Both the position numbers and the translations under genes were made by a program. A model generated the notes under the pieces. It had not been told where the DNA came from. It did no database searches and was given only the letters and a program-made list of their open reading frames with translations. Of a stretch of DNA of 26,180 bases, positions 5,075 to 26,180 are shown piece by piece (position 1 is the first letter of the stretch; every line of letters begins with the position of its first letter). The stretch spans positions 1 to 26,180 of IMG/VR virus record IMGVR_UViG_3300035670_001118; one strand, written 5' to 3'. This DNA comes from a virus.

Positions 5075-5093
5075 TTTTATCTCCTGTTATAAT

Positions 5094-6767: not shown

Positions 6768-6781
6768 TGTAGTTTCATCCT

Positions 6782-7362: not shown

Positions 7363-7387
7363 TTTTTTCTCCTATCTCTCTTATTTA

Positions 7388-9076: not shown

Positions 9077-9122
9077 GTTTTAATCTCCTTTTTTTCAGGC
9101 TGAATAGTGCTTTTTTATCTTG

Positions 9123-9130
9123 TATTTATG
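9123..9130 (-). promoter_or_regulatory. Likely late promoter variant for genes 18-19
   Basis: The minus strand reads CATAAATA, one base from the T4 late consensus. It lies in the 57-base non-coding gap between gene 17 and gene 18, 46 bases before the gene 18 start. A separate promoter here would fit the need for many more sheath and tube subunits than terminase. The first base mismatch keeps confidence moderate. Confidence 0.5.
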
Positions 9131-9133
9131 TTT

Positions 9134-10768
9134 TTAAAAAGTTGAGGATGGATACCCTCTATTGGACACATAAGACCAACGGTCACCAGAGTTATCTTCA
9201 ACATCTTCAATCCTACCATCGTCAAATATACCAACTGGTGCAATACTTTCTTCGATCAATAAGTTTTGTTCTTCAACTAACCGCCTACGGATATCGCTGT
9301 TTGTGTTCTCTTTAAAGAACGACTGTGCGGCCAACCAAGAAAACATCACCAATGTCATGGCCATATCGTCATGATTACCTTCTTCCGCCTTAAATGTATC
9401 TTTTTCTCTAGAAAAAGTATATAGTTCTAGAATGGTATCTTGGTCATTAATGATTAATTTATCAGATTCAACCATTGCTTTAAAGTTTGCACAACCAATT
9501 TTTTTAACAGAAACGGTCGTTCTAAGACCAAAAGAAACCGATCTTTTAAAACCTGCTGAAATTGATTGACCTTTAATATTATGGTGTTCCAGTTTAAAAA
9601 TGTTGTCATATTCTAAATCGTGGTGTAAAATGTCAACGACTTGTTGGCCAATATTGTTCGTTTCTACTAATATAAAGGCCTCATTGTATTTCATACCAGT
9701 AGAATAAATCAGAGTTGGGTAGATAAGTGTTGGTATTTTATTGTTTCTATACTTTGCAACTTGTCTGTACGGTATTTCTGTAACATCAATAACTGAGAAA
9801 GCGGAATAGTCTAGACCCACACCTTCTGAACAGTCAACAGTAATTACATACATTCGGTCTTTTTGGGGATATTCGTAAATATCAAATCCATCACCCGATT
9901 CAATAGGTGTTTCATATGTTAATGATTTAAGTTTTGCAGCTGATATAAGTGTTGCAGTAGAACCAATAAACTCAGTTTCAAATTCTTGTCTAAACTGTTC
10001 TTCAGAAGTGTTTCGTATTGTTTCTTCTTTCCACTTCTCGTCTCTACCCGGCACCATTGACCAGTGAACTTCAACTGGTTTATATAAACTTCTTTTCTCT
10101 GTGGCATCTTTCCACATTTTATAGAAAAGATTCAAACCATTTGGTGTCGAAACAATAATAACTTTTGTGGACTGGCCAGAAGAAATAACTGGGTAAGTAG
10201 ACGTAAAGAATTCTTCTGCGATGTTATTTGGTACGAACGCAAATTCGTCTAAGAACACTAGGTTATATGTACCACCTCGAACACCAGCTCCTGATGTTGC
10301 ATAGGCATAGATTTTAGATTTGTTTTCGAGTTCAATGTTACCTCTATTCCAAACTAAAATGCCTTGTTGCATCCAAGTTGGTAGATATTCATAGGCATAT
10401 TGAACACGACCTAGAATCTCACGGGCAAGTGAACCTTTGTTAGCTAGAATGGCAATAGAATAGTTATCGTTGAACAAAACAGACCACAACATGTATCCAA
10501 CCGTCGTGGTTGTCTTTCCAACCTGTCGTGGCATCTTTGCGATACAGAAACGATTCTCATGGAAATCTCGCACCATATCTTCTTGGAACGGCCACATTTC
10601 AAAAGGCACAAGGCCTTTATCTACGTTAACAATCTTAACGTAGTTCTTAATAAAATATACCGGATCTTCCATACACTTAGCAATTTCAATTAATTGCTCC
10701 TGTGTATAAGATATTTCTGTACCAGGTTTTTTTAGACTGGCATTACCAAGATAACCCTCATCAGCCAT
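9134..10768 (-). CDS. 17: Terminase large subunit gp17
   Basis: This 544-residue protein is the packaging motor ATPase with a headful nuclease. The ATPase half shows Walker A PRQVGKTT (80-87), Walker B VFLDE (171-175) with catalytic Glu175, and the coupling motif STPNG (207-211). The RNase H-like nuclease half shows VDCSEGVGLDYSA (311-323, Asp312), ILVETNN (366-372, Glu369) and HDDMAM (466-471, Asp467/468). T4 gp17 has 610 residues. It starts at ATG two bases after the Dps-like stop and has only a weak ribosome site inside that gene, so translation probably depends on the upstream gene. Confidence 0.97.
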   Translation of the reverse strand: MADEGYLGNASLKKPGTEISYTQEQLIEIAKCMEDPVYFIKNYVKIVNVDKGLVPFEMWPFQEDMVRDFHENRFCIAKMPRQVGKTTTTVGYMLWSVLFNDNYSIAILANKGSLAREILGRVQYAYEYLPTWMQQGILVWNRGNIELENKSKIYAYATSGAGVRGGTYNLVFLDEFAFVPNNIAEEFFTSTYPVISSGQSTKVIIVSTPNGLNLFYKMWKDATEKRSLYKPVEVHWSMVPGRDEKWKEETIRNTSEEQFRQEFETEFIGSTATLISAAKLKSLTYETPIESGDGFDIYEYPQKDRMYVITVDCSEGVGLDYSAFSVIDVTEIPYRQVAKYRNNKIPTLIYPTLIYSTGMKYNEAFILVETNNIGQQVVDILHHDLEYDNIFKLEHHNIKGQSISAGFKRSVSFGLRTTVSVKKIGCANFKAMVESDKLIINDQDTILELYTFSREKDTFKAEEGNHDDMAMTLVMFSWLAAQSFFKENTNSDIRRRLVEEQNLLIEESIAPVGIFDDGRIEDVEDNSGDRWSYVSNRGYPSSTF

Positions 10769-10770
10769 TT

Positions 10771-11205
10771 TTATTTACTGGTGCTCTTCAGCATCCATCC
10801 ATGTTTATTATGTGCGTCAATTCTACCTGCAATATAATCTGCAAGGCCTTGTTTGTCAAATTCGTTTGCTAATTTGAAAGCAACATTTAATGTATTTAAA
10901 AGTTTATCGTTATCTTCAGCAAGCTTACGAATCATATCTATTGCTGTTGGAATTGTCGTGTCACATTCAATCTCACTTAATTCCATATAACGTGTAAATG
11001 AACCAGGAGCATAAGCACCTAGTGTACGTATTTCTTCTGCTATTGCATCTGTCGCAGCATAAACTTCTCCATAAAGATCACCTAAAAAATCGTGATATTG
11101 TGGAAAATTTGGACCTTCCACATTCCAATGATAGTAATTTGCTTTGAGTTGAAAGGCGTAAGTTTCGGCTAAAACTTTACGCATAATTTCTATTAATGTT
11201 TCCAT
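10771..11205 (-). CDS. Dps/ferritin-like protein between the terminase genes
   Basis: The protein has 144 residues. It matches the Dps family core: KANYYHWNVEGPNF (21-34), H38 twelve residues after H26, then D53 and E57 in ATDAIAEEIRTLG (51-63). These align with E. coli Dps ferroxidase residues His51, His63, Asp78 and Glu82. The position equal to Asp67 is Gly42, with Asp39 and Asp43 close by, so the iron site may be altered. Dps proteins form 12-mer shells that bind DNA and oxidise and store iron, protecting against peroxide. There is no long Lys-rich N-terminal tail of the E. coli type. It overlaps gene 16 by one base (TAATG) and precedes gene 17 by two bases, so it is made with the terminase. 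T4 has nothing here. The fold is confident; the role in the phage is unknown. Confidence 0.88.
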   Translation of the reverse strand: METLIEIMRKVLAETYAFQLKANYYHWNVEGPNFPQYHDFLGDLYGEVYAATDAIAEEIRTLGAYAPGSFTRYMELSEIECDTTIPTAIDMIRKLAEDNDKLLNTLNVAFKLANEFDKQGLADYIAGRIDAHNKHGWMLKSTSK

Positions 11206-11588
11206 TACTTGTTTGCCTTAATCATGTTAATTAAATCTGCGGTAGAACCAACAAATACCGCCTTGTCAATCTTAACATCAGAACTTTGTTTTGGTTCCAA
11301 ATCTCTTTTTCTTTTTTGTATTTCTAATAAATCTTTATTCATATCTGCCAAATTTTTAAGCATGTTTGCAGCAACTTCATATGCTCTTGGATGTTCAGAT
11401 TCTTTTGCGACATGCAAGAGATTATCCATGGCAATATTACCTTTATCTATAAGACCACGGATATTCTCTCTTGCAAACTCAGCATCATCATGAATTGGAT
11501 TTGTAATCTCAACCACTTCAGTTCTCTGAGTAAATTCAACAGGTTCAATGTCAAGTACTTCAGACAACTTTTCATCAATTTTTTTCAT
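11205..11588 (-). CDS. 16: Terminase small subunit gp16
   Basis: The protein has 127 residues (T4 gp16 has 164). It regulates the packaging ATPase and recognises DNA for packaging by forming oligomeric rings on DNA. The central helical pair (ARENIRGLIDKGNIAMDNLL, then SEHPRAYEVAANMLKNLADMNKDLLEIQK) and the C-terminal KAVFVGSTADLINMIK match the T4 gp16 pattern (NADSPRHMEVFATLM ... NATVFMGSPTELMDEI). It lacks the longer N- and C-terminal tails of T4. It follows the 265-aa gene by four bases and overlaps the Dps-like gene by one base. Confidence 0.93.
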   Translation of the reverse strand: MKKIDEKLSEVLDIEPVEFTQRTEVVEITNPIHDDAEFARENIRGLIDKGNIAMDNLLHVAKESEHPRAYEVAANMLKNLADMNKDLLEIQKRKRDLEPKQSSDVKIDKAVFVGSTADLINMIKANK

Positions 11589-11592
11589 TCAA

Positions 11593-12390
11593 TTAACCCC
11601 AAGTACCGCCAGTGAAATTAATATATCTCCAAATATCTGTTGTACCGTCATATGTACCAACACAACGATAAATTTTATCATTATCAATAGAAATTAAACC
11701 GGCCACATCACCTGGATCGCCTTTAGATGTTAATGGTACTGGTGTGTGCCATTGTAAAACAACACCATCAACGTTTAAAATGCCAGTTACAGTTAAATTA
11801 TTTGCAGTAACAGTATTTGAAGAAATGACATTAACGCCTACTAAATTATTTGCAGTAATTGTATTCGCACCAGAAATATTACCTGGAACGGTCAATGTAC
11901 CGTCTGTATTTGCAAGAGTTACATAATAAGATTGTGCATTGAATTGTACATTACCTCCATCATTACCAAGTCTTGTATCATTTGCTCTTAAATTTAAAAA
12001 TCCTGAACCTTCGCCATCTAATGAATTAAAAGAATCACAAGTAACTGTTCCGCCCTCTTGAACTATTAACGAAGAAACGTTGGCTTCTGCTGTGCCGTCA
12101 AATAAACTGTTAGCAACAGCTCTAGCAGTAGAATCAACGGAACTTGCAGCAGCACTATTGGCCGCAGCAAATGCAGCATTAGCATATGCGCCAGCAGAGT
12201 TGGCAGCCTGGAAAGACGCAGTACCATCATTCGTAACAAACGATAGTGTACCAGATCCGTCAGTTGCCAGAACTTGACCAGCAGAACCATCGGCAGATGG
12301 CAATATGAAAGCGATATTTGGAGAAATAGTATTGGCGGCAACCAATTCTATTTTACCAGAAGTATCTCCAAGAATTGTAACTTTAGACAT
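11593..12390 (-). CDS. Fibre-like virion protein related to the long tail fibre
   Basis: The protein has 265 residues. It shares two module types with the long fibre at the right edge: an LPSADGSAGQVLATDGSGTL segment (30-49; the fibre has LPSTNGSANQVLALAEDG), and Ala-rich AANSA/AFAAAN repeats (about 62-90). The middle is a beta-rich stretch with N-G-TVTG-NLTVTG spacing, seen in phage fibre shafts. The C-terminus, with DNDKIYRCVGTYDGTTDIW, resembles a small tip domain. It starts with an AAGGGGAT ribosome site. Its place between gene 15 and gene 16 is not T4-like. A short fibre or a whisker-type neck appendage is plausible; function is inferred from modules only. Confidence 0.75.
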   Translation of the reverse strand: MSKVTILGDTSGKIELVAANTISPNIAFILPSADGSAGQVLATDGSGTLSFVTNDGTASFQAANSAGAYANAAFAAANSAAASSVDSTARAVANSLFDGTAEANVSSLIVQEGGTVTCDSFNSLDGEGSGFLNLRANDTRLGNDGGNVQFNAQSYYVTLANTDGTLTVPGNISGANTITANNLVGVNVISSNTVTANNLTVTGILNVDGVVLQWHTPVPLTSKGDPGDVAGLISIDNDKIYRCVGTYDGTTDIWRYINFTGGTWG

Positions 12391-12405
12391 TTAAAAATCC
12401 CCTTT

Positions 12406-12738
12406 TTATTTTATAATCCATTCTGAACCTGGAGATACGGTTACAGTTACTCCAGGAGATAAAACTGGGTCTATTGTAATTGCATTATAGCCCTCAGGTA
12501 TAGTATAACTAGAATCTATGGTTGTACCACCAATAGGTTCTAATGTAAATTTTGCAGCAGTAGTAACTGCCGTAGAAATTGATCTCTCAATAACAGAATC
12601 TAATGAAGATAGTTTGATCTTCTTTGTTACTGCTGGTGAAGAACTATTATCTACAACAATTAAAATAATCTGATCTAAGTCATCAACAACATCAACTAAT
12701 TGTAACTCAGATAGTTCTGTAATTTTTTTGTTTGCCAT
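12406..12738 (-). CDS. Small virion-type protein, function unknown
   Basis: The protein has 110 residues. The N-terminus (MANKKITELSEL, then DLDQIILIVVDNSSSPAVTKKIKLSSL) is a pattern common at the N-terminus of phage fibre and virion proteins. The C-terminus (YTIPEGYNAITIDPVLSPG...VTVSPGSEWII) looks like a short turn of beta-helix. It overlaps gene 15 by one base (TAATG) and precedes the 265-aa fibre-like gene by 15 bases. Together the two may form one appendage. This is inference from order and N-terminal pattern. Confidence 0.7.
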   Translation of the reverse strand: MANKKITELSELQLVDVVDDLDQIILIVVDNSSSPAVTKKIKLSSLDSVIERSISTAVTTAAKFTLEPIGGTTIDSSYTIPEGYNAITIDPVLSPGVTVTVSPGSEWIIK

Positions 12739-13568
12739 TATTCTTCTCTTATTGGTAATGAATTTTCTGTTGCAATCTTATAACCATCTTCAGTAATAAT
12801 GTATGTGTATGCAAGTTCTTCGGCTCTTTGTTCTGAGAAACCAAACTCATCATCAGGTTCAGCCGTATCAGGATTTGGTGTTGTGACAAACTGTGTCACA
12901 AGATTATAAACAGTAGTGTTTGCTTCCAGGTATATATTGGTATTTGCTTGTCTGATAACTTTACCAGTACGCACAGCAGGCCAAATGTAACCTTTTGCGG
13001 TGAACTCTAAGTCCCATGTAATCAATCTTGTACTCATCATATCACCCTCATAGTCTGTTGTTGGTGTAACAGAGTTTAGAATGATTGGTAGATCGTACTT
13101 TTGGTCCATTGGCTGAATAAAGTCAACAGTCACAGTAAAATCTGGTGTAAAGAATGGTAAAATTTGTTCTAATATTTGTGTACCATCTTCTGTATTGCGA
13201 GTATAGATTGACAATGAAAAATCAAAGTTATATGGAACTGGCACATACTGAGCATTTAAAGATGTACTTGTATTTGCCGAAAAGTTTCTCATCGTTGAGA
13301 TTTGTTTGCGGCCAGAATCGTAACTCATGCCGGTCATCTCAAAAGAAATTCTAGGTACAACTGTAGCAATAGATTTGGTTAAGTTAGGATCAGAAGTTAT
13401 TCTCGTCATATATTTTTCTTTAGCGCCATATGATAATGGCACCTTGAAAATTTCTCTTGGTGATCCATTTGTATTGTACCGAACAATCTGAATGTCATTA
13501 AAGAGCGTACCAAAAGCCACTACAACTTTTCGTATTGTTCGGTTATAAAAGTGTTGTTGTCCTAACAT
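12738..13568 (-). CDS. 15: Tail completion / sheath stabiliser protein gp15
   Basis: The protein has 276 residues from the start chosen here (T4 gp15 has 272). It forms the hexameric ring that caps the finished tail and joins it to the neck. The N-terminus FYNRTIRKVVVAFGTLFNDIQIVRYN matches the gp15 pattern of T4 (FYNSSFRRYATLMGDLFSNIQI), which fixes the start at 13568. There ATG overlaps the gene 14 stop by one base (TAATG). A longer reading from 13601 would add 11 residues lying inside gene 14, and is rejected. Further family pieces are VPLSYGAKEKYMTR and MTGMSYDSGRKQ. Confidence 0.93.
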   Translation of the reverse strand: MLGQQHFYNRTIRKVVVAFGTLFNDIQIVRYNTNGSPREIFKVPLSYGAKEKYMTRITSDPNLTKSIATVVPRISFEMTGMSYDSGRKQISTMRNFSANTSTSLNAQYVPVPYNFDFSLSIYTRNTEDGTQILEQILPFFTPDFTVTVDFIQPMDQKYDLPIILNSVTPTTDYEGDMMSTRLITWDLEFTAKGYIWPAVRTGKVIRQANTNIYLEANTTVYNLVTQFVTTPNPDTAEPDDEFGFSEQRAEELAYTYIITEDGYKIATENSLPIREE

Positions 13569-14515
13569 TAATCGCCACCAAATGGATTTGTTTCGGTCCA
13601 ATCTAGAATTAGATCGCCTTCTGTTTCTACTCTATTGTTATCTGCAATGTCTTCAAATACGGTATCAAATGTAACTTTATCATTTGCAGTTGTCATTGTC
13701 CATGTTGCACCACTTGTATTGCCTGTAATTGTACCTGCACCAAATGTTCCGTTTACATGAATGACATCAACATATCTACCTGCATTCCATGTATGAACTG
13801 TTGCGGTAGCTGTTGCGGTTGCTAAACTGGATCCTTGATATACAATTTCTTCTGGTTCAAATGTGCCAGAACCACCTGTGATACTTACTGTAAGTCTTGT
13901 CTTTGTATAGGCATCAAATGCTTGTTCATCAATTTCTGTAATGCCTGTTGAAATTAATTCATGTGAGAAGACATATTGTTTTAGTTTTAATGCATACACA
14001 TAAACATTACCGCCACGGCCACGACCAAGAGAATAGAACATGGCTTGATCGTTCTCATGTTCGACAAAAGTAATCTCAAAAAAGTTTTTGAGCATTGGAA
14101 TATAAACAAGGTCACCTTCTCTTGGTCGAGTTGGTGATGCATTTTCTGATGGTGTAATATCACCTAATCTTGGTTGATTAAAGTTTGTGGCACCAACAGT
14201 ATATTTAAATCTACGGCGAGAAACGAGCAATTGAACTTCATCACGAATCTCTAAACCAAACTTAGAAATGAAATCGCCTTCGCCATCCATTCCTGTAACA
14301 TTCTCAAGATACATTTCAATTGGATGTGCAGAACGATATTGTTTGAGTGTGTCTTCACCGTATAGATAATCTTCTGTGCCGTCACTTGACCGTGGCAGAT
14401 AATAAACATCCATGCCATAGATGCCCATGGCTTCAATCACCAAATCTTCAACTAGAAGTTGTTCATTGGTGATCTGTTCTTGTGGAAACGGTTGGAAATA
14501 AAAGTTGGTAGCCAC
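13568..14515 (-). CDS. 14: Neck protein gp14
   Basis: The protein has 315 residues (T4 gp14 has 256). It forms part of the neck that seals the packaged head and receives the tail. The N-terminus (NEQLLVEDLVIEAMGIYGMDVYYLPR, 18-42) is typical of the family, as is GDLVYIPMLKNFFEI. Extra length comes from a beta-type insertion at about 207-282 (GSGTFEPEEIVYQGSS..., ending GATWTM). The C-terminal DWTETNPFGGD ends the protein. The start codon is GTG at 14515, two bases after the gene 13 stop, with a weak GGG ribosome site; coupling to gene 13 is likely. Confidence 0.93.
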   Translation of the reverse strand: MATNFYFQPFPQEQITNEQLLVEDLVIEAMGIYGMDVYYLPRSSDGTEDYLYGEDTLKQYRSAHPIEMYLENVTGMDGEGDFISKFGLEIRDEVQLLVSRRRFKYTVGATNFNQPRLGDITPSENASPTRPREGDLVYIPMLKNFFEITFVEHENDQAMFYSLGRGRGGNVYVYALKLKQYVFSHELISTGITEIDEQAFDAYTKTRLTVSITGGSGTFEPEEIVYQGSSLATATATATVHTWNAGRYVDVIHVNGTFGAGTITGNTSGATWTMTTANDKVTFDTVFEDIADNNRVETEGDLILDWTETNPFGGD

Positions 14516-14517
14516 AG

Positions 14518-15471
14518 TTAACCCATTATGAAGTCTGATGGAAGAACATTGTATGATTGCATTTCTTCTTCAATCTTATCAATTTCTCTCTGTGCTTCCT
14601 CCATAATTCTTGGTCCATCTAATGTGACACCGCCAGGCATTTGTATGCCAGCAAACTTAGAAAGGTTAGTTCCCCATTGATACTTAATTAGAGCAGTACC
14701 ATATCGTTTTAGAAATCTATCGTTCCAAACATCTGTCATTCCTGGTTTGCTGGCTGTTGCAGATGTAATATCAACAGCTGGCGCAGCAATCAACATTAAC
14801 TCTGTTGGTGAATTAATACGATTAACTTGTAAATCGGTACCATTGATTGTAATGATATCACCTTCTACGAGTTCTTGGTCAAACTTTGTACCTGTGCCTG
14901 TAACTGTATTAGAAGTGTTTGTTGCGGTAAATGTACCAGTCAATGTTACGGAATCTGGATTCATTTTACGATAGCATTCGATGACAACATATTCACCAAC
15001 TGTTGCATCTCTAGACCAATCAATATCTAAGAAAAGTCGGTTGTGATGTCGATTGAATCTGAATTGAGGAGTACCTGAGAAAAGAAGATTTAAAGTGCGA
15101 ATGTGTTGCATGGTAATTTCATATGACACATACGAAACAGAAGTAAAGTCATAGAGATCATGCAAACGTAACTGATATCTCAGGTCAAACATATTGATTG
15201 ATGAATTAGAATCATCAAACGGCATAACACCAATTACAAAAAGAACAGGATCAGGACAATAAATCCACTTACGATCAATGTCTTCTTGTGTAAATCGATG
15301 TTTCATGTAAATCTTCTCACAACCTTCAAAATGATAGTCGTGGAAGAATTGCAGTGCGTCATCGATGCGATCTTCTACTTGATCGTCATCTACGTTAATT
15401 TGAATTACTGGATGGCCTAAACGGCGAAGGCAGTAATCTTTGAATTCTTGTCTAGTAGCAGGTGCGGCCAT
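14518..15471 (-). CDS. 13: Neck protein gp13
   Basis: The protein has 317 residues (T4 gp13 has 309). It is the head-completion neck protein that binds the portal and gp14. The N-terminus (RQEFKDYCLRRLGHPVIQIN, then DDDQVEDRIDDALQFFHDYH) and the segment WIYCPDPVLFVIGVMPF are typical of T4-like gp13. A beta module of about 70 residues (174-243, GTFTATNTSNTVTGTGTKFD...) is inserted before the C-terminal helices. It starts at ATG 15471 behind GGGA at five bases. That site lies in a hairpin overlapping a consensus late promoter. Confidence 0.93.
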   Translation of the reverse strand: MAAPATRQEFKDYCLRRLGHPVIQINVDDDQVEDRIDDALQFFHDYHFEGCEKIYMKHRFTQEDIDRKWIYCPDPVLFVIGVMPFDDSNSSINMFDLRYQLRLHDLYDFTSVSYVSYEITMQHIRTLNLLFSGTPQFRFNRHHNRLFLDIDWSRDATVGEYVVIECYRKMNPDSVTLTGTFTATNTSNTVTGTGTKFDQELVEGDIITINGTDLQVNRINSPTELMLIAAPAVDITSATASKPGMTDVWNDRFLKRYGTALIKYQWGTNLSKFAGIQMPGGVTLDGPRIMEEAQREIDKIEEEMQSYNVLPSDFIMG

Positions 15472-15496
15472 AATAGTCCCATGTGAATGGACTATT
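15472..15496 (-). promoter_or_regulatory. Hairpin covering the gene 13 ribosome site
   Basis: AATAGTCC (15472-15479) and GGACTATT (15489-15496) pair in an 8-bp perfect stem with a 9-base loop. The 3' arm, as read on the minus strand, holds most of the Shine-Dalgarno GGGA and reaches the base next to the ATG. The 5' arm overlaps the last bases of the late promoter. A message started at that promoter would lack the 5' arm and leave the site free. Read-through RNA from the fibre genes would fold and be poorly translated. Confidence 0.65.
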
Positions 15497-15500
15497 TATA
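15493..15500 (-). promoter_or_regulatory. T4-type late promoter before gene 13
   Basis: The minus strand reads TATAAATA, the exact T4 late consensus, in the 63-base gap between the 689-aa fibre gene and gene 13. It ends 21 bases before the ATG. It should drive the neck, tail terminator and terminase run. Confidence 0.82.
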
Positions 15501-15534
15501 CTAAATTAAATCTTTGTTTTTACTATAATACTAT

Positions 15535-17604
15535 TTAAGTAATAGTCGTAATTGTCATTGTGGAATCACCTGTGGTATTAGTTAAACCACTTAAATGTTG
15601 TGATCCTCCAGAAGGAGCCCAACTGTGGTGTCTATATTCAAATGTAAGTGATTGGCTGGATACTGAAACTGTGGTGTAGTTGGCATAACTGATTCCACTC
15701 CAAGTTCCTGTATCGGAGCCGTCAGGATTAAGTTTATGAACTGTTACATATTTTGGTGTTGCTTCGTGTTTAACCAATGAATATATGTGTTGTCCTGTAG
15801 AAGTTGATGCCATTGACATTGGAACATCAACACTTGTTGTACTATATTTTCTTTGCCACTGTATAACAAAAGAAGAATTTAATTTTACAATAATTACATC
15901 AGCATTTCTTTGCATAGAAATGTAGATATTTCCGTCACTATCAGTACATACTCCTCCAACATCTGATATAGCACCTGCACTGTCTGTAAATTTATAAGTT
16001 GAAGCGGAAGACCAAGTTGGCGTTATTTTTATTAAATATGCATGGCCGTTTACCGGATCATGACCTGAAGCATATGTATACTTTGATGCATCTACATGAA
16101 TTTTGTTCCATTTAAAATTATTTAAATTTGAAACTCCAAATGACACGGCTGGATTTGAACCGTTAGCAAGTAAAAAAGGAGATGCTGGTGTAGGATAAGC
16201 TCCGTATAATCTAACTAAAAATCCTTTAAAATTATTTTGATTTGGGTCATACGCATTATAAGATTTACCGCATATTGCAATATATCCATCTTTATATGAT
16301 GCAGCATCAAATATCCAATGTTTGTCACCATATGCTGTTGAACATTCATAATTATTTGAATAGTGTCGAGCGTATGTTGCTATATTAAGCGATCCGTTTG
16401 CAGCATTTAATTTGTAATGTATTGGAACCATAGATCGTTGAGTGGTACCACCAAACAATGTTCTTCCATTTACTAGATCAAAAACATTAACACAATCTTC
16501 TGCTGCGCCATTATGTACAACAACCATACCTTCATCACCTTGGCTACCATATGTTGAATGATAATAAGCTAATTTGCTAGCAAAAAGAACTGCTCCGGTA
16601 TTAGCATTTAATTTAAAAACTGAAGTGTCCATATCATCATAAACTGAACTTGTATTTGAACCTAATGATCCCGTATAATATATGGCATTATTTGCATAAT
16701 TTAAACTGTAACCTAAGTATTGATTTCTTGATGATTCTGTGTTAATTTGTTTTTGCCAACGAGTTGAACCTTCTTTGGTTAAACTTAAAACGCCAGTATT
16801 ATTTGATGATCCATTTCCACCAAGCCCACTACCTTTTGTAGCTATTGCAACATAAACATTATCACTATCATCAACAGTTAAATTTTCTGCATATGTATCA
16901 TAACTTGCAGTAGATATTTTTCTAATCCATGTAGATAATGTAGTTACTGTTAAACTAAAAGACCTTGTGGACTCTTGATTTTCTGCATCTGTTGCAACGA
17001 CATCAAAATTGTATAAAGTGTCATTTGCAATACCTGTAACTGTACCATATACATAACCATTTGATAACAAAGTTACTCCATTTGGCAATGAAGATCCTAA
17101 AGCAAGTTGATATGTTGTTGCATATGTAGCATTTAAATTTAAATTGAATGCAACATCAAGCCTTTGATTTGTTAATGTTGTTCCTGTTATCCATAAAGGT
17201 TCAGATGAATATGTCAAACCATTAACATTAATTGCAGTACCACCATCTGTATTTACAACATAAAGATTATATGTAGCAGCGGACTTTGCAGGAACTTGTG
17301 CATGTAAAGTATTTGAGTCAATAAAAGTTACTGACGTTGCTGGTGTGCCTTCAATTAATAACTGAGCACCAGTTTTAAATCCTGTTCCATTAACAACAAT
17401 ATAACCACCACCAATATTTGCAGCAGTATCATCTAAAACATGGTAAGTTGAGTTTGCAATATCAACAGAAGTAATTTTAGGACCACCACCTTCAACGATT
17501 GTGGTTGCAACAGAAGATTCAATTTTAGGTAGAGTTACTGCATTATTTGCAAGTAACTCTGTGTCAACTGTACCTGAAGCGAGCAGTAATCTTTTGCGTG
17601 TCAT
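15535..17604 (-). CDS. Modular adhesin: TIG, putative Ig, beta-propeller
   Basis: The protein has 689 residues. Residues 1-35 (ASGTVDTELLANNAVTLPKI) are a fibre-type N-terminus. Residues 42-132 look like an IPT/TIG domain (PKITSVD...GGYIVVNGTGFKTGAQLLIEG). Residues 135-221 look like a putative-Ig (He_PIG-type) domain, with LPNGVTLLSNGYVYGTVTG and YNFDVVATDAEN. Residues ~224-640 carry repeats of form xxYAENLTVDDSDNVYVA, CTDSDGNIYISM and VFKLNANTGAVLFA, as in beta-propeller blades. The C-terminal 50 residues are Ser/Thr-rich. A propeller at the fibre tip suggests binding to a surface polysaccharide or protein. It is the last gene of the fibre cluster. Domain calls are by eye. Confidence 0.8.
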   Translation of the reverse strand: MTRKRLLLASGTVDTELLANNAVTLPKIESSVATTIVEGGGPKITSVDIANSTYHVLDDTAANIGGGYIVVNGTGFKTGAQLLIEGTPATSVTFIDSNTLHAQVPAKSAATYNLYVVNTDGGTAINVNGLTYSSEPLWITGTTLTNQRLDVAFNLNLNATYATTYQLALGSSLPNGVTLLSNGYVYGTVTGIANDTLYNFDVVATDAENQESTRSFSLTVTTLSTWIRKISTASYDTYAENLTVDDSDNVYVAIATKGSGLGGNGSSNNTGVLSLTKEGSTRWQKQINTESSRNQYLGYSLNYANNAIYYTGSLGSNTSSVYDDMDTSVFKLNANTGAVLFASKLAYYHSTYGSQGDEGMVVVHNGAAEDCVNVFDLVNGRTLFGGTTQRSMVPIHYKLNAANGSLNIATYARHYSNNYECSTAYGDKHWIFDAASYKDGYIAICGKSYNAYDPNQNNFKGFLVRLYGAYPTPASPFLLANGSNPAVSFGVSNLNNFKWNKIHVDASKYTYASGHDPVNGHAYLIKITPTWSSASTYKFTDSAGAISDVGGVCTDSDGNIYISMQRNADVIIVKLNSSFVIQWQRKYSTTSVDVPMSMASTSTGQHIYSLVKHEATPKYVTVHKLNPDGSDTGTWSGISYANYTTVSVSSQSLTFEYRHHSWAPSGGSQHLSGLTNTTGDSTMTITTIT

Positions 17605-17626: not shown

Positions 17627-19192
17627 TTATTTCCAGAATTGTGGTGGTAATGTTTGTGGAGTTGGTGCCGCATTAAATGAAACCCTTGTTGGGAAATCAA
17701 CTTCATATATTTGATTTAATTTTAACTCTATTGTTGTTGGAGAAACAGTAGAGATTACAAAATTTGTTTGTGCATTTTGTGAATCAACACTTTGCATTGT
17801 GATACTTGTAAATGTATTGAAGCTATTTGAAACATCTAAAGTTTCAATTGATGCAAATGTGATGTTTGTAACTGGAACATTAGTATAATTAAAACCCGCT
17901 GCGCTAACTTCGAGCTGAGTATTGCCGGCGCCGCCAACAAAATATACACCAATATCATCATCAATAATAGATGCTGGGTATGCTGTTTCTGTTATAGTGT
18001 AACCAACAACATTATTGACAGCTGTAATGATTACAACTTTTGTGTTATTGATATCGTAGTTTGTAATAGGATCAATAATTAAATTGGCAAGAGAGTTGCC
18101 ATTTGTAATTGTTATTGTTCCGCTTGATGCACTGAATGTTGCTGCACCAGATACATCGTAATCTGTTTGATAAACCGCATTTCCTGTAACAGAAAATTGT
18201 ATGGTTACATCGCCATCTGTAATTGCATTTGCACCATTTGCTCTAGAGAAAGAGTAAACGATATTGCTGGTACCATCTTCAGATGTAAAAGATGGAGAAA
18301 CTTCTATCGATACAGTTGGGCCAGTTGCTTCTGGTACTGGTGCTGAAGCTAATGATAATACAATTTTTCCGGCAGTTGCACCATTACCAGCTGTTCCTCT
18401 ATCACTATCTGACGCATTTCCTGGACTCGTACTGCTAGATCCATTATAGAGTGTAACATCGGTTACATATGTTGTACTATAATAACCTGAGCCACCACCA
18501 CCACCAAAACCGCCAGCATCACCACCACCGCCACCGCCGCCATAATGGCCGCCGCCACCGCCGCCACCGCCTTGGTCACCAGCATCGTATATACCCATAC
18601 CACCAGTATAGCCAGAAATTCCAGAAACCGAACCACCAGAATAACTATCTGTAGCACCAGATCCTCGGCCGCCGTTTGTTCCAGATCCAGACGAACCGGT
18701 TCTTCTAGAACCAACACCACCTGCACCAGCACTTACTTGTGTGCCTCCACCGCCGCCGGAACCTGGTGCAGTTGAACCATTTGTACCACCACCAGATCCA
18801 CCTTGGCGGCCACTAGCGTCAGCTCCTGAACCACCACCACCACCGCCTGCAATCAGTACTTCTGTTGAACCTGCCCGTAAAACTCCTGAGGCAGCACCAC
18901 CGCCGCCACCGCCTCTAGTACTACTTGCGCTTGTTCCTGGATTACCAACAAACAGTTGATATGTTACTCCATTCTCAAAAGATATTTTTCCAAAAGCTGC
19001 ACCACCTGGACCACCACCATTACCAGTTGTGTAGTTACCACCACCAGCACCCCATATTTTTGTGTTAGCTGAGAAGTCTGCTGTTGGTGTAATTGTCCAA
19101 AGACCGCCAGATGGCAATACTAAGTCACCATCTGTACTTAAATTCCAGGTGGACTTTCCGCTAACTGAAGGTGATATGGTAAACGTTGACAT
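17627..19192 (-). CDS. Polyglycine-rich adhesin with Calx-beta module
   Basis: The protein has 521 residues. Residues 1-45 are beta-rich (TWNLSTDGDLVLPSGG). Residues ~48-275 are dominated by Gly runs separated by short hydrophobic strands, such as EVLIAGGGGGG and GKIVLSLA. This resembles bacterial glycine-rich surface domains and the polyglycine tip of T-even gp38-type adhesins. Residues 292-413 look like a Calx-beta domain ending in SIIDDD, with possible calcium ligands. Residues 414-521 are a C-terminal domain shared with the next gene upstream. The coding strand here is full of GGx codons, so it is locally GC-rich. It follows the 456-aa gene with tandem stops (TAATAAATG). Likely a receptor-binding tail protein. 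Confidence 0.8.
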   Translation of the reverse strand: MSTFTISPSVSGKSTWNLSTDGDLVLPSGGLWTITPTADFSANTKIWGAGGGNYTTGNGGGPGGAAFGKISFENGVTYQLFVGNPGTSASSTRGGGGGGAASGVLRAGSTEVLIAGGGGGGSGADASGRQGGSGGGTNGSTAPGSGGGGGTQVSAGAGGVGSRRTGSSGSGTNGGRGSGATDSYSGGSVSGISGYTGGMGIYDAGDQGGGGGGGGHYGGGGGGGDAGGFGGGGGSGYYSTTYVTDVTLYNGSSSTSPGNASDSDRGTAGNGATAGKIVLSLASAPVPEATGPTVSIEVSPSFTSEDGTSNIVYSFSRANGANAITDGDVTIQFSVTGNAVYQTDYDVSGAATFSASSGTITITNGNSLANLIIDPITNYDINNTKVVIITAVNNVVGYTITETAYPASIIDDDIGVYFVGGAGNTQLEVSAAGFNYTNVPVTNITFASIETLDVSNSFNTFTSITMQSVDSQNAQTNFVISTVSPTTIELKLNQIYEVDFPTRVSFNAAPTPQTLPPQFWK

Positions 19193-19195
19193 TTA

Positions 19196-20566
19196 TTAAT
19201 CTGTCCAAACTTGAATAGGATTATCTGATGCTGGTGAAGGACCATCGAAATCATAATAAGAAACAAAGTCAATTGAATAGGTTAAATTTATATCTAACTG
19301 TACAGAATCGGTACTTATAGTTGTCATTGTATTCAAACTATTTGACACATCTAATGTTTCAATAGTAGCAAAAGTAATGTTTGTAACAGGAATAGAAGTA
19401 AAACTTAAATTTGCTACACTAAATTCTAACTGATTGTTTCCTGCACCACCAACTGGATAAACACCAATATCATCATCGTAAATGTAACCCGTAACGGCTG
19501 ATGTTACAACAAGATAACCTGCGGTAGTATTAGCCGGTGTAATTGTTACGCTATCAACACCAAAATAAGAAATATTAGATGTACCTTCAATATCAGCATC
19601 TGGTGTTGGAATAATAATTAAGTTTGCATTTGCTGTTCCGTTTTGAATCGTAATTTGACCAGCAGATGAACTAAATGAATCTGCGCCTTCAACGGTATAA
19701 TCAACGTTGTAAGTTGCATTACCACTCACAGCAAACGAAACTACATCAGTACCAGAAGTTACAGGTACTCCCGTGTCTGCACGATAGAACGTGAAGATTA
19801 AATTTGATGATGCGTTTTCTAATACGCTTGTTGGAGAAACTGAGAGACTTATTCTTGGGCCTGGAGGCGGACCTAAAAACTCCGAATTTATTTGTGAAAC
19901 TTCTGCATCTGATAGTCTGCGATCATAAGCCGCAAAATAAGAAATGTCACCCCAGTATTGACTATTACTGTTTACATCAGTATTGCCATTGTGATAAGCA
20001 CCAATGACATAAAAACTATTATTGTATCGAGCATTAGAATTAGTTATAGTGCCTCTTTGTACACCATTAACATTTAGATCAAATGTATTTGGAGAATCAT
20101 TATTTGACCAACGAACGACCCACAAATCAAAATCACTAGGATAACCTGGTAAAGATTGTTGAGAATAACCTGTACTGTAAAATCCAGATCCTTGGTCGTA
20201 GAGACCAATGTTCCATCCAGCCTCTTGAATAATAACTTGGTGATCTTCGCTCCAACCTCTAGTCAAAGTTCTCCATGTAGAAGAGGAATTTAAAACTCTT
20301 GTATAAAGAACATATGTTACACCAGATGTTCCAGTTAATCCAGGAACATCACCAGCACCAGCACTTCTTTTGGCAGAACCATAACTGCCACTAAAGTTCA
20401 TATATGGTATTGAACCCGTGGTCTGCCAAGCGCCGGCATTTATATTAAAGTTATTGGAATTTCCTGAAGTATCGTACCAAACTGATCCAGAACCAGGATA
20501 AGAAGAACTATTACTAGCGTCTAAAGCTAATTTAAGGCCAGAAGTTACATTATTAGTATATGACAC
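19196..20566 (-). CDS. LamG-like plus Calx-beta tail adhesin
   Basis: The protein has 456 residues. Residues 1-230 look like a concanavalin/LamG fold: SGLKLALDASNSSSYPGSG, WYDTSGNSNNF, then FDLNVNGVQRGTI, FYVIGAYHNG and the closing ISYFAAYDRRLSDAEVSQIN. Such domains bind sugars. A GPPPGP linker (232-237) leads to a Calx-beta-like domain (239-366, ending YIYDDD) and a C-terminal domain that nearly repeats that of the next gene. The start is GTG at 20566 with GGAG eight bases upstream; nearby ATGs (20570, 20580) are out of frame. It follows the 352-aa gene by 15 bases. Confidence 0.8.
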   Translation of the reverse strand: MSYTNNVTSGLKLALDASNSSSYPGSGSVWYDTSGNSNNFNINAGAWQTTGSIPYMNFSGSYGSAKRSAGAGDVPGLTGTSGVTYVLYTRVLNSSSTWRTLTRGWSEDHQVIIQEAGWNIGLYDQGSGFYSTGYSQQSLPGYPSDFDLWVVRWSNNDSPNTFDLNVNGVQRGTITNSNARYNNSFYVIGAYHNGNTDVNSNSQYWGDISYFAAYDRRLSDAEVSQINSEFLGPPPGPRISLSVSPTSVLENASSNLIFTFYRADTGVPVTSGTDVVSFAVSGNATYNVDYTVEGADSFSSSAGQITIQNGTANANLIIIPTPDADIEGTSNISYFGVDSVTITPANTTAGYLVVTSAVTGYIYDDDIGVYPVGGAGNNQLEFSVANLSFTSIPVTNITFATIETLDVSNSLNTMTTISTDSVQLDINLTYSIDFVSYYDFDGPSPASDNPIQVWTD

Positions 20567-20581
20567 GCATCAATCTCCATG

Positions 20582-21640
20582 TCATTGCATTAAAATGCCA
20601 ATATTTAAACCGCGATTTCTTGTATCGCTTTCATTGTGAGTGCAGCTAAATTTATAATATCTTCTTCCAGAAACATAAAATACTTCGCCTGTTTGGTGGT
20701 TTTTTCCAGACAACAAAACTATTCCTTCTGGAATTTGCCACGCATTTCCTCTTAGGTGATTTCCTAACATAAAAGGATAAACTGCTGTAGATTGATTTCC
20801 ATATCGATTGTATCTATCACTAATAAAACTTTCACTAGTACTATTTGGATACATCTTAATTAAATTATCATTAAAGTTATTATAAGAATCGCCTGTTGTT
20901 ACTGTGATATCTTGAGAGGTTGATAACAGATTATTGAATCTTGATATATTTACACCTGGTTGATATTTGTGTAAATGTGCTTGTAAATAATATTGAGTGT
21001 TGTCACCATTTCCCATTCCAGATAAACCAATCATCGGAACAGCATCAGAATTTGGATAACCATGAACAATAGAAGCAGAAGCATTACCAACATACCAAAA
21101 AGTTCTATTTGTAACACAGCCAACAAATATGAAAGATTGATTTACTGAAATAACCCATCTTTTTCCAGCAACAGTGCCCCATTGATCTATACTATCTCTT
21201 CTGTTTGGAGCCTCATTGCCGGCTTCACCCGCACCAAGAAAATTTAAGGGCCGAGCGTAATCAAAATTTCCATAAGTTGTAGCTTCAATATCACTTGTAG
21301 CAAAAGAACCTAAGAAACCAGAAAGATTTCCATGATTATTATACGTTGTACTATTTGTGCGAACAGCAAAACCTTTTCTATATGCAGGCTTATCTGCTTT
21401 GCCAGCTACAGGAGCATGAATTTCGGTCTTAGGTGTTTGTTCAGTTGGACCAGCATAAATTAATTTTTCTGTCCAACCTCCTGCACCAGTACTATATTCG
21501 TGATAGAAACTACAATAAGTGGATGTTGTTGCTTCTGCTTTTAATACATTATTACCAGTAGCAACTGCATTTAATATTTTAATAAATGTTTTTGTTCCAC
21601 CTGTTCCGTCCGCTGTTGTAGGAACAAATTCAACAAACAT
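20582..21640 (-). CDS. Tail-fibre cluster protein, function unknown
   Basis: The protein has 352 residues and I recognise no named family. It is rich in Tyr, Asn, Ser and Gly, and looks like folded beta structure. Notable pieces are GKRWVISVNQSFIFVGCVTNRTFWYVG (mid-protein), then a C-terminal IPEGIVLLSGKNHQTGEVFY...SGRRYYKFSC. The end resembles the C-terminus of the next upstream gene product, suggesting a shared tip fold. Cysteines are few. There is no signal peptide or membrane segment. It starts right after tandem stops of that gene (TAATAAATG). From its place among adhesin genes it is probably a fibre or baseplate-associated virion protein. Confidence 0.72.
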   Translation of the reverse strand: MFVEFVPTTADGTGGTKTFIKILNAVATGNNVLKAEATTSTYCSFYHEYSTGAGGWTEKLIYAGPTEQTPKTEIHAPVAGKADKPAYRKGFAVRTNSTTYNNHGNLSGFLGSFATSDIEATTYGNFDYARPLNFLGAGEAGNEAPNRRDSIDQWGTVAGKRWVISVNQSFIFVGCVTNRTFWYVGNASASIVHGYPNSDAVPMIGLSGMGNGDNTQYYLQAHLHKYQPGVNISRFNNLLSTSQDITVTTGDSYNNFNDNLIKMYPNSTSESFISDRYNRYGNQSTAVYPFMLGNHLRGNAWQIPEGIVLLSGKNHQTGEVFYVSGRRYYKFSCTHNESDTRNRGLNIGILMQ

Positions 21641-21643
21641 TTA

Positions 21644-22771
21644 TTAGGCTCCATTGATTGTAGTTGGTACCAAGTAACAAGCTGGATGTCCATAGTTAGT
21701 GCCAGCTACTGATTCAACGTTATTGCCGGTTCTATGCATTCTAACGACTCTATAACTTACACCTTGTATAGAAATCTCATCTCCGTTTTGACCAATGAAA
21801 TCGGATGTTCTATAAAGATTAGGAATTTTTCCGTAACCATTACCTCTAGAGTTAGCCTGTGTTGTGTTTCCATATCCTGGAGTGCCTGGATAAAAATACA
21901 CTGGCAATAGATAATTCTGTGAGTTACCAACAGAATCTCTTGTTGGATAAACCGCAGTAGCTGGTGTTGGCCAAATCATCGGATAAATGTATGTTGTTTC
22001 CGTTTGGTGACCATTTCTTCTGCCGTCAGCATGCCTATAAGCCGTTGAAGCACTTCCATCAAACATTCTACCCATAGTAATTCTGGCATCTTGTCGACCT
22101 TGATAAGTTTCTAAGGTTGGATATGTAGAAGTTGGCCAATATAAACCTCCAGCAATAATACTAAATCCAGGATAAAATTTATCATCAATACTTCTTGCCC
22201 AAGTATCTGCACCTGTAGCTTCATATTCTAACATTGCAGACGAACCACCAAAATTATTACTATCTTTAAAAGTAATAATTGTCCAATATTCCGATAAGAA
22301 GAAATTTAATTCGGCTGCACTTGTATATGGATTCAATTGAGAACCAACGTTTGTCGTGTAAACGCCGTTTTGTTCCCAATAACCATCAAAGTTGGTACCA
22401 TTTGGTTCGTAAAAGTTAATACTTGTTGGATGGTCAGTAACTCTTGTTCGCCAAGAGAATACTGGACTGCCTCCGCTTATCTGGTTGGCTAATTGTAAGG
22501 CTCTTCTAGCACCAGTTACAGAATGGTGTTCTTTATAAAAAATAATTCTTGTTGGATTAGCATCATCACCACCAATTACTGTTGACATCGTAAGGGTGGA
22601 TGGTTTAGATCCAACTTTTACACAATTGTTTATTGCAAAAGCAGCAGTAGGTAAAGCTGCGATTTCAGTAGTACCATTAATAACACCTACAATCCAATCA
22701 GCAACAGTTAGACCACTTACGGTAGTTCTGAGTGAATAATTATTATTTGTAAACGAAATTTTTACGTACAT
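21644..22771 (-). CDS. Tail-fibre cluster protein, function unknown
   Basis: The protein has 375 residues and no family that I recognise. The N-terminal 60 residues (MYVKISFTNNNYSLRTTVSG ... AFAINNCVKVGS) look like a small attachment domain. The rest is Tyr-, Thr-, Gly- and Asn-rich beta sequence, ending in IPNLYRTSDFIGQNGDEISI..GVSYRVVRMHR. That end has the same spacing as the end of the 352-aa protein (IP...G.NG-E-I...G..YR). It begins with an AAAGGAAAT ribosome site, 15 bases after the 76-aa gene. Likely a virion fibre or receptor-binding component by context only. Confidence 0.72.
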   Translation of the reverse strand: MYVKISFTNNNYSLRTTVSGLTVADWIVGVINGTTEIAALPTAAFAINNCVKVGSKPSTLTMSTVIGGDDANPTRIIFYKEHHSVTGARRALQLANQISGGSPVFSWRTRVTDHPTSINFYEPNGTNFDGYWEQNGVYTTNVGSQLNPYTSAAELNFFLSEYWTIITFKDSNNFGGSSAMLEYEATGADTWARSIDDKFYPGFSIIAGGLYWPTSTYPTLETYQGRQDARITMGRMFDGSASTAYRHADGRRNGHQTETTYIYPMIWPTPATAVYPTRDSVGNSQNYLLPVYFYPGTPGYGNTTQANSRGNGYGKIPNLYRTSDFIGQNGDEISIQGVSYRVVRMHRTGNNVESVAGTNYGHPACYLVPTTINGA

Positions 22772-23024: not shown

Positions 23025-26000
23025 TTATCCCTCTAAGGTATATAGTATTGTCATATTTAGGTCTGATCCACCTGTAGATAACACATCTACCGTCAAATAG
23101 TCATCTTCTACCATACTAAATGGAACCAAACTTGTGGTTTTTGATTCGTTAGATAAAATGTCAAATGATCGGATTTGGCTGTCATTTTTCAATAAAGAAA
23201 CTAAAACATTCGATGAACTTGTGGACACCAATCTTAGAGTTACGGATGTAGCTGTTAAGTTTGTTGGTGCATACCATCTAACAGTACCAGTTGTTGGCAC
23301 TAAAGAACCGGTTTGAGTTAAACTTACGCTTCTTGTTGAGGTGGCACCAATTGCAGTATTTGCCCAAGTAAGGCTTGTGCCATCTTCAGCCAAAGCTAAT
23401 ACTTGATTTGCTGAACCATTCGTTGATGGTAATACTAAAGTAACGTTCTGAGTTACGGTATTTGGTGATCTGAGTGTTACGTATGTTGACGAATTTGCAT
23501 TTTCAAATTTGATAGCATTTTCATTTGACAATACAAAGTCTGAACCTGCACCCTCTTCTGTTTGTACCTTTAATTGTCCACCAACATTCTGCAATACTAA
23601 ACCTTGGACATTCAATGCTGTCGAAACTGTTAATGCGCCAGATGTGTTACTGACTATAATTCCGTCAATGTCAATGGAACCTGGTCCAACAAACACTGTA
23701 TGTATTCTATTTGTAGAATTACCAATATTATAGGTGACATCTGATGTCGGTATAATATTGCCTGAAATTTCTACGTCACCACTAATTAAACCACCAGTTG
23801 TACTAAATCCAGAGTTAGCAGCATCAAATGCAGCCTGTACACCACCTGCAGCACTATTTGCGGCATCAAATGCAGCTTGAACTGAGTTTGTTAATCCATC
23901 TAAAATGGCTTCAGCATTTGTATAGATGAGTACAGTAACTTCATCATTTGCTGAACCGGCATTCGTAAGTATAATTGTACTGTTTGAAACCTCTTTAACA
24001 TAGTCTGTTTGTGCAAGAAGAATACCATTTTGGTAAACATGAACAGTAGAGTTTGCCAGAACAACCATCGAAGCATTCGCCAGCACAGTTTGATTGGCTT
24101 CTAATACAAATTCAAATGTTTGTAAATCAGAAGTTAAGTATGATGGTGTTGCTTCAGTAATAATTGTAACATCAATTAATGAGTTAGCTGAAGGTGCTTC
24201 TGAGAATACTAAGTTGGCACCAGCAACATTATAAGATGCTTTACTTTGCATTACACCGTCAATAGAAACTAAAGTGTAATTTTCGCTAGTTGGTATTCTT
24301 GTAAGTGTAAATGTTGTACATGCATTGTCACCAGTAAAATTATCAACTGTAATTAATGCAGTTGAATTATTGACAACATATGTTGCACCTTGAGTAAATA
24401 CTGTAACGTCAATATTTGAATTTGCTGGTGGTGCTTCTGTAAATGTTAATGTTGTTCCAGTAACATCATAAGAAGATTTTAATTGTAAGACACCATCAAT
24501 TACAACAAATGTGTAATTTTCGTTTGCTGGTTGTGTTGATAAGGTAAATGTTGTACAAGCATTATCGCCAGCAAAATTATCAACGTTAATTGAGATTTGG
24601 AAATCTTGGTTTGCTTTATCGAACGCAGCATTTGCATGAGCATAAGCTAAAATGCCTGTTGTACCTTCAGCAGTATTAGCAGCATCAAATGCCGCCTGTG
24701 CTAAATCGGTTGCACTGTTTGCGGCATCAAATGCAGAGTTGGCTTGGTCTCTAACCCAAGTATCAACTGAATTGTTGGCTGCATCGAATGCGGATTGTGC
24801 GATTGAAGAAATGGTATTTACATATGATTCTGAAGCAATGTTTTCATATGTAATGCCATCATTCGTGAATGTCCATTTATCAGCAGTTTCATTCCAGATA
24901 ACACCAACATTATTTTCTGTACCCCTATCGATCTCTATACCAGCATCAACAGATGGCGCAGCTGCTTGGTCTATACCAGCATTTAATGTGATGATGTTAT
25001 CGCCAAGATTTACTGTCGTTGTATTGGCATAAGTTGTTTGACCAGTTACCGTTAAATTGCCAACAACATTTAAATCACCTGTAATTGTACCGCCAGTTTG
25101 TGGTAGTGCAGCGTTAGCAGTATCAAAAGCTGAGTCAGCAGTAACTTGAGCTGTATTGGCCGCATCAAATGCAGAGTTGGCTTGGTCTCTAACCCAAGTA
25201 TCAACTGAATTATTTGCAGCCTCAAAAGCAGCGTCAGCGGTAATCTGTGCATTATTAGCGGCATCAAAAGCTAAGTCAGCTGTTGTTTGTGCAGTGTTCG
25301 CAGCATCAAATGATGAATTTGCTTGGTCTCTAACCCATGTATCTACTGCATTATTAGCAGCATCAAATGCCGCATCAGCAGTAATTTGTGCGGTATTAGC
25401 AGCATCATATGCGGCTTGTGCCAAATCACTAGCAGAATTGGCTGCATCGAATGCTAAATTGGCAGCATCAAATGAAGACTGGCTTAGTGTGTTAGAAGCA
25501 TATTCGTCAGCGCCTTGCATCGTAGTAATCTCAATTGAAGCATTTGAAGCTGGTGCTTCAGAAAATACCACTGCATTTGCAGAAATGTTATAAGAAGACT
25601 TTAATTGTAAAACACCATCAATAACTACTGAAGTATAAATTTCATTTTTTGGAGTTGTTGATAGTGAGAATGTTGTACAAGCATTATCACCAGTGAAAGT
25701 ATCTAATGTTAATACTACACCAACAGGTAAAGCTTCTTGTGAAATAAATGTGATGGCCTCAATGTTAACATTACCTGGTGCTTCAGAGAAAACGACACTT
25801 GAACCTACAACATTATATGCGGATTTGTGTTGTACTATACCATCTAAGGTGATAATTGTAAAATTTTCTTCAACTGGAATTGTTGACAATGTGAATGTTG
25901 TACATGCACCATCACCAGTGAATGAATCAACAGTCATTGAAACGCCAAAGGCAGAATTGATTAATGTTGATGCTGCATTAACGGCATCATAAGCTGAGTT

Positions 26001-26180
26001 GGCGTGATTATAAGAAGAGTTGGCTTGATCACGTACCCAATAATCCATTGAATTGTTGGCCGCATCGTAAGCAGCATTAGCATGATCATAAGCAGAATTT
26101 GCTTGGTCTCTAATCCAAGTATCTACAGCATTGTTAGCGGCCTCAAAAGCTGCATTAGCCGTATCAAAAGCAGCATTAGT
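23025..26180 (-). CDS. Long tail fibre, repeat-built (N-terminus off the right edge)
   Basis: An open frame covers at least 1051 codons. The Met at 26048 is not the start, since the frame runs on through 44 more codons of the same repeat to the edge. Numbering from that Met, Ala-rich blocks with AFDAAN and VDTWVRDQANSAF repeats (about 1-35, 190-315, 415-480) look like a trimeric helical coiled-coil shaft. Four copies of a ~65-residue beta module (about 38-103, 113-177, 487-551, 566-632) each contain GDxACTTF and a DGVLQ-x-KSSY hairpin. A segment with GDLNVVGNLTVTG and WNETADKWTFTNDG (319-400) is typical of T4-like fibres of aquatic phages. The C-terminus has NIGNSTNRIHTVFVG, LPSTNGSANQVLALAEDG and a 100-residue beta tip. 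Confidence 0.88.
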   Translation of the reverse strand, partial: TNAAFDTANAAFEAANNAVDTWIRDQANSAYDHANAAYDAANNSMDYWVRDQANSSYNHANSAYDAVNAASTLINSAFGVSMTVDSFTGDGACTTFTLSTIPVEENFTIITLDGIVQHKSAYNVVGSSVVFSEAPGNVNIEAITFISQEALPVGVVLTLDTFTGDNACTTFSLSTTPKNEIYTSVVIDGVLQLKSSYNISANAVVFSEAPASNASIEITTMQGADEYASNTLSQSSFDAANLAFDAANSASDLAQAAYDAANTAQITADAAFDAANNAVDTWVRDQANSSFDAANTAQTTADLAFDAANNAQITADAAFEAANNSVDTWVRDQANSAFDAANTAQVTADSAFDTANAALPQTGGTITGDLNVVGNLTVTGQTTYANTTTVNLGDNIITLNAGIDQAAAPSVDAGIEIDRGTENNVGVIWNETADKWTFTNDGITYENIASESYVNTISSIAQSAFDAANNSVDTWVRDQANSAFDAANSATDLAQAAFDAANTAEGTTGILAYAHANAAFDKANQDFQISINVDNFAGDNACTTFTLSTQPANENYTFVVIDGVLQLKSSYDVTGTTLTFTEAPPANSNIDVTVFTQGATYVVNNSTALITVDNFTGDNACTTFTLTRIPTSENYTLVSIDGVMQSKASYNVAGANLVFSEAPSANSLIDVTIITEATPSYLTSDLQTFEFVLEANQTVLANASMVVLANSTVHVYQNGILLAQTDYVKEVSNSTIILTNAGSANDEVTVLIYTNAEAILDGLTNSVQAAFDAANSAAGGVQAAFDAANSGFSTTGGLISGDVEISGNIIPTSDVTYNIGNSTNRIHTVFVGPGSIDIDGIIVSNTSGALTVSTALNVQGLVLQNVGGQLKVQTEEGAGSDFVLSNENAIKFENANSSTYVTLRSPNTVTQNVTLVLPSTNGSANQVLALAEDGTSLTWANTAIGATSTRSVSLTQTGSLVPTTGTVRWYAPTNLTATSVTLRLVSTSSSNVLVSLLKNDSQIRSFDILSNESKTTSLVPFSMVEDDYLTVDVLSTGGSDLNMTILYTLEG
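24724..24773 (-). repeat. 50-base perfect direct repeat, copy 1
   Basis: This stretch is identical, base for base, to 25162-25211. Both encode the ...NSVDTWVRDQANSAFDA unit of the long fibre. Less exact copies lie near 25300-25355, 26020-26070 and 26090-26140. Confidence 0.9.
25162..25211 (-). repeat. 50-base perfect direct repeat, copy 2
   Basis: Second copy of the repeat at 24724-24773, 438 bases away. The 438-base offset is a multiple of three, so recombination between the copies would remove 146 codons and keep the frame. Confidence 0.9.

Follow-up and report, generated by a model that had tools for sequence, protein, structure and literature searches.

In T4-type phages, the gp38 adhesin is a tail protein with a polyglycine-rich receptor-binding part and an N-terminal attachment part, and the fibritin (wac) gene lies just upstream of gp13 on the T4 map. 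Fibritin consists of a conserved 50-aa N-terminal neck-binding domain, a coiled-coil shaft, and a variable C-terminus. It has been given as an example of the usual polarity of phage fibres, in which the N-terminus attaches and the C-terminus binds; its conserved N-terminus binds the neck, and one of its ends is modularly replaced (PMC3797505). Beside the gp14 neck gene, pelagimyophages and cyanomyophages have a hypervariable island with tail fibres, described as the host recognition cluster (HRC), and carbohydrate-binding domains, concanavalin A among them, have been reported from their structural operon, in structural proteins that are unidentified (PMC7029224).

We analysed a 26,180-base fragment of the IMG/VR record IMGVR_UViG_3300035670_001118 (hereafter, the window). 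On its minus strand, gp13-, gp14-, gp15-, gp17-, gp18-, gp19-, gp20-, gp21-, gp22-, and gp23-like genes are found in T4 structural order, with the gp13/gp14/gp15-like genes (PHROG matches) at 12738-15471, after the slot that holds the adhesin genes. The nearest named relatives of the terminase are those of Pelagibacter and Synechococcus myoviruses (55-57% identity), and the source is an uncultured, aquatic, Kyanoviridae-related T4-like phage. The slot extends from gp13 to a large repeat-rich fibre-like gene, within which the window ends. Of the two borders of the island, the window covers the one on the gp13 side; the other border of an HRC is at VrlC. The features of the island and its borders are as follows.

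14518-15471, minus strand: gp13-like neck protein (head-tail adaptor Ad2), the downstream island border (phrog_211, E = 2.8e-41)
15535-17604, minus strand: P689, a tail protein with an N-terminal TIG mount and a propeller-like C-terminal head (Pfam TIG and SBBP)
17627-19192, minus strand: P521, 521 aa, ATG start
17630-17962, minus strand: P521 C-terminal orphan domain, residues 411-521, DDDIGVYFVGGAGN... (55% identity to its P456 counterpart over aligned columns)
17963-18322, minus strand: P521 Calx-beta-like domain, residues 291-410 (43% aligned identity to P456; related Nostoc repeats)
18323-19192, minus strand: P521 N-terminal head, residues 1-290, glycine-rich (poly-Gly), read from the translation
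19196-20566, minus strand: P456, 456 aa, GTG start
19199-19477, minus strand: P456 C-terminal orphan domain, residues 364-456 (by its P521 counterpart)
19478-19861, minus strand: P456 Calx-beta-like domain, residues 236-363 (by alignment to P521; Nostoc repeats)
19862-20566, minus strand: P456 N-terminal head, residues 1-235, LamG/concanavalin-like (phrog_25721, E = 5.5e-24)
20582-22771, minus strand: two slot proteins of the same island, 352 and 375 aa, without a family match
23025-26180, minus strand: large repeat-rich fibre-like protein, 1051 aa, continuing past the window end (51% identity over ~500 aa to a 1348-aa protein of the related locus L017)

P521 and P456 thus lie where the HRC does, in an island that lacks synteny and lies immediately upstream of the neck genes, and the island matches the published cluster (PMC7029224): it is variable and rich in tail fibres, and glycosyltransferase or sulfotransferase genes occur in the corresponding island of some relatives. 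It differs in that none of the sequenced relatives examined contained the P521/P456 pair or its C-terminal domain. The first-pass annotation had seen two neighbouring adhesins here; the adhesin-type modules and the location in a tail and host-recognition island beside the neck genes support this part of its reading. At the two borders, we note that residues ~177-230 of the gp13-like protein (14518-15471) match the tail-fibre profiles phrog_1980 and phrog_17834, an apparent inserted domain, and that tandem 141-bp repeats are located at 25106-25463 within the large fibre-like gene.

The P521 and P456 genes are adjacent on one strand, with 3 nt between them. BLASTP aligned the proteins from residue 291 of P521 and residue 236 of P456 nearly to both C-termini (102/238 identities, 43%, E = 1e-50), which defines a common C-half of ~230 residues that begins directly after each head. 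The motifs DDDIGVY, VGGAGN, and TNITFA(S/T)IETLDVSNS are present in both proteins. In Smith-Waterman comparisons, the Calx-beta-like part scored 237 against 44 ± 7 (maximum 72) for 500 shuffles, and the last domain scored 232 against 34 ± 6 (maximum 57; 500 shuffles); because of these tests, we regard each of the two parts as homologous by itself. At the DNA level, identity was 77% over 161 nt (family D2) and 57% across the codon-aligned C-half. The heads displayed no similarity, with a Smith-Waterman score of 54 that falls within the range of 300 shuffles (49 ± 8, maximum 81). Overall, the proposal of two proteins with unrelated N-terminal heads on a common C-half was confirmed, and the similarity of the C-halves at the protein and DNA levels extends far beyond the short motifs rather than being background only. 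The accompanying description of a Calx-beta domain ending in DDDIGVY was correct as to the motif but not as to the boundary, since the Calx-beta-like domain ends with DDD, and IGVY belongs to the start of the domain that follows.

The P521 head had no match in Pfam. When scored without composition correction against a local sister-phage Gly_rich_2 (PF21722) profile, it reached a best-domain score of 96, compared with 66 or less for the seven top listed shuffles, and its whole-sequence scores overlapped those of the shuffles; given its composition, the head is at most a candidate Gly_rich_2 domain. In this head, P521 resembles gp38 in having a polyglycine-rich recognition module, a likeness of type and not of demonstrated sequence homology, and differs from it in that the attachment part of gp38 is N-terminal. 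The P456 head is 32% identical over 197 residues to the domain at the C-terminus of Syn19_042, a LamG-bearing fibre protein of Synechococcus phage Syn19 (E = 3e-19), had no match to Pfam Laminin_G, and gave short, weak matches (E 3e-5 to 3e-4) to three stand-alone proteins of the related locus L065; judged by its sequence matches, this head is LamG-like. Of the L065 proteins, two were scanned, and Laminin_G_3 was above the Pfam cutoff in one and below it in the other. The three L065 proteins (5684-7748; 216-238 aa) are encoded in tandem directly downstream of the gp14-like gene, a second site for adhesin-like genes, across the neck genes from the island.

A scan with gp14 yielded 80 related loci. 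Among those on long contigs, the nearest is L017, which matches the window at 90.7% identity over ~12 kb (3578-15514); this similarity stops abruptly at 15514, 20 bp before the first slot gene. L017 lacks both P521 and P456; in their place are three other proteins with an N-terminal TIG mount and C-terminal Gly_rich_2 heads. This TIG mount is common to P689 (up to 57% identity), residues 12-223 of which are 47-57% identical to sister-phage slot proteins bearing other heads. Elsewhere, the slot holds Calx-beta-like and Gly-rich parts (L026); a short anchor, a Calx-beta-like part, and repeats (L029 and L044); a TIG mount with three LamG domains (L007); TIG with RCC1-like repeats, as read from sequence (L008 and L011); or collagen with S74 (L062 and L071), and the Syn19 protein has an N-terminal mount followed by LamG. 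The shuffled combinations that the first-pass annotation had proposed looking for in sister phages thus exist: L017, L026, L007, and Syn19 carry these head types on different mounts. Sulfotransferase and glycosyltransferase genes are located among the island tail proteins of L007 (30-1802), L011 (2292-4058), L062 (5696-7624), and L071 (6046-7749).

The order of the parts sets the pair apart. Where a Gly-rich domain was detectable in a sister slot protein, it ended no more than 37 residues from the C-terminus in 26 of 27 cases, not all of them independent, and the exception (L046) is cut at a contig edge. LamG heads are C-terminal in Syn19_042 and L007 and stand alone in L065. P521 and P456, in contrast, start with their heads, lack the N-terminal mounts of their neighbours, and carry the constant half at the C-terminus. 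Accordingly, Syn19_042 shares with P456 a homologous LamG-like head but has it C-terminal, behind an N-terminal mount, whereas that of P456 is N-terminal, before the C-half; and the L017 proteins resemble the pair in being tandem paralogs with glycine-rich heads in the same slot but have the constant half N-terminal and the head C-terminal, with neither a Calx-beta-like nor an orphan domain. Fibritin is comparable in its gene position upstream of gp13 and in the modular replacement of one end, but P521 and P456 vary at the N-terminus, where fibritin is conserved; neither gave a PHROG match to the fibritin (wac) family, and their N-termini are the heads. Among slot protein pairs with partial sharing, 471 shared the N-terminal part versus 151 the C-terminal part (counts that are non-independent and affected by truncated contigs). 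We conclude that modular head variation is ordinary in principle but that the order of parts is unusual and the end domain is without a known relative.

We next consider what the C-half contains. The first part of the shared half is 33% identical to Calx-beta-like repeats of Nostoc (residues 2-123, E = 4e-14). Neither C-half matched PF03160 (Calx-beta) at the gathering score, and the Nostoc repeats themselves are below its cutoff (23.1 versus 27 bits); because these related repeats match only below the cutoff, we refer to the first ~120 residues as Calx-beta-like. A profile comparison of this domain with that of L026/L029/L044 was not significant (probability 2.6%), and for this reason we do not claim that the two phage spacers are of common descent. 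The orphan domain that follows (about 93-111 residues) had no relative in 50,697 phage records (tblastn), Pfam, PHROGs, PDB sequences, or IMG/VR pattern scans, which require short exact peptide matches and which distant relatives could escape. The IMG/VR queries were protein patterns of P521C, P456C, their joint alignment, and the last-domain alignment, and DNA patterns of FAxIETLDV and VGGAGNxQLE. Three candidates were set aside: a 36-residue match around DDDIGVYF in L003 and a pattern match in L087, which had no related protein, were dismissed as chance, and phrog_32357 (E = 0.014) was judged not significant as a relative of the C-half. With the C-half as query, PDB sequences gave only matches with E of at least 0.13, and two AlphaFold predictions had pLDDT values of 36 and 34, below usable confidence.

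Our preferred reading, to which we assign a probability of roughly 0.55, is that P521 and P456 are accessory tail adhesins, each made of an N-terminal head, a Calx-beta-like spacer, and a common C-terminal domain, in which the C-half serves as the fixing or assembly part and the heads bind different ligands. The genes lie between the large fibre-like gene and gp13-gp14-gp15 in T4 structural order, and in relatives this slot is occupied by tandem paralogs, some of whose modules are shared and others swapped. We infer that the products are on the virion and that their heads bind host surface ligands, with the C-half as the attachment end because it is constant and an N-terminal mount is absent; the term mount for the C-half is thus plausible. 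The constant job of the C-half would be virion attachment or assembly of the protein, and the heads would contact different surface ligands. The island as a whole may be exchanged between phages as a block through the conserved flanking neck genes, and heads may be recombined among several kinds of mount. Against this explanation, the proposed polarity would be the reverse of that of most phage fibres, and the only guide to it in the sequence is which half is constant; the lack of a known relative of the C-terminal domain and the low confidence of both structure predictions also count against it.

If the pair instead followed the usual fibre polarity, with attachment by the N-terminus (PMC3797505), receptors would be bound by an exposed C-half, and the variable N-terminal domains would have an attachment or structural role. 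We consider this improbable because, in relatives, domains of the glycine-rich and LamG types form variable tips at the C-terminus, with a conserved mount at the N-terminus, and because a phage that placed one constant tip on two different bases would acquire no additional specificity. The main rival to a mount, which we regard as unlikely but somewhat less so, is that the C-half helps the protein to fold or trimerise or acts as its chaperone, as Peptidase_S74 ends do for fibres that otherwise differ. In L062 and L071, which provide the clear cases of C-terminal sharing in the slot, neighbouring paralogs have only their last 120-140 residues in common, and these are Pfam Peptidase_S74 chaperone ends, so C-shared pairs in the slot can be chaperone-bearing fibres. 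However, Peptidase_S74 was absent from the P521 and P456 C-termini in the Pfam search that detected it in the L062 and L071 controls; a Calx-beta-like spacer is part of the C-half but not of S74 ends; and we saw no collagen or coiled-coil-like shaft in either protein that would need a trimeriser.

A further, more tentative possibility, which we hold to be somewhat short of even, is that the orphan domain is an undescribed virion-attachment module that carries interchangeable heads N-terminal to it and that the island mixes N-terminal TIG mounts with C-terminal Calx-beta/orphan mounts. With the C-half as mount, this phage group could present a given recognition module either way round, and annotation by the rule of an attaching N-terminus and a binding C-terminus would place specificity in the wrong domains, in the island that is most variable in abundant aquatic phages. 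The P521/P456 pair is a compact natural test, in a single phage, of head exchange on one base.

Finally, we examined the history of the pair, which the first-pass annotation had ascribed to duplication followed by head replacement. A recent tandem duplication in place, with one head then replaced, would account for two adjacent same-strand genes, 3 nt apart, with homologous C-halves. However, synonymous sites in the C-halves are near saturation (pS 0.65), so this scenario is not supported, and identical residues use the same codon in 54 of 100 cases, scarcely above the 46.5 expected from codon usage alone. Further, the conserved block DDDIGVY-SNSFNTF shows synonymous conservation no higher than elsewhere (Fisher p = 0.54), which rules out recent gene conversion in it; the conservation of this last-domain block reflects protein-level constraint. 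With the sister phage also lacking both genes, we consider recent duplication very unlikely. Because pS is ~0.65 for the C-halves versus 0-0.56 for core genes between the window and L017, and L017 is without both genes, it fits better that the pair diverged before the split of the window phage and L017 or was imported already diverged, i.e. a very old paralogy or import.

Two segments of the core depart from the general level of divergence. First, 3,105 consecutive bases of the window (11093-14197) are identical to L017 and to L004, which is 99.8% the same genotype as L017 from another sample, and the flanking genes have pS values of 0.2-0.56. This suggests that a very recent homologous exchange took place across gp14-gp15, beside the adhesin island, or that the window assembly is chimeric. 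Second, within the gp18-like sheath gene (7800-8830), identity to L017/L004 drops to 64-74%, compared with near or above 80% for its neighbours, which suggests that part of the sheath protein is divergent or has been exchanged.
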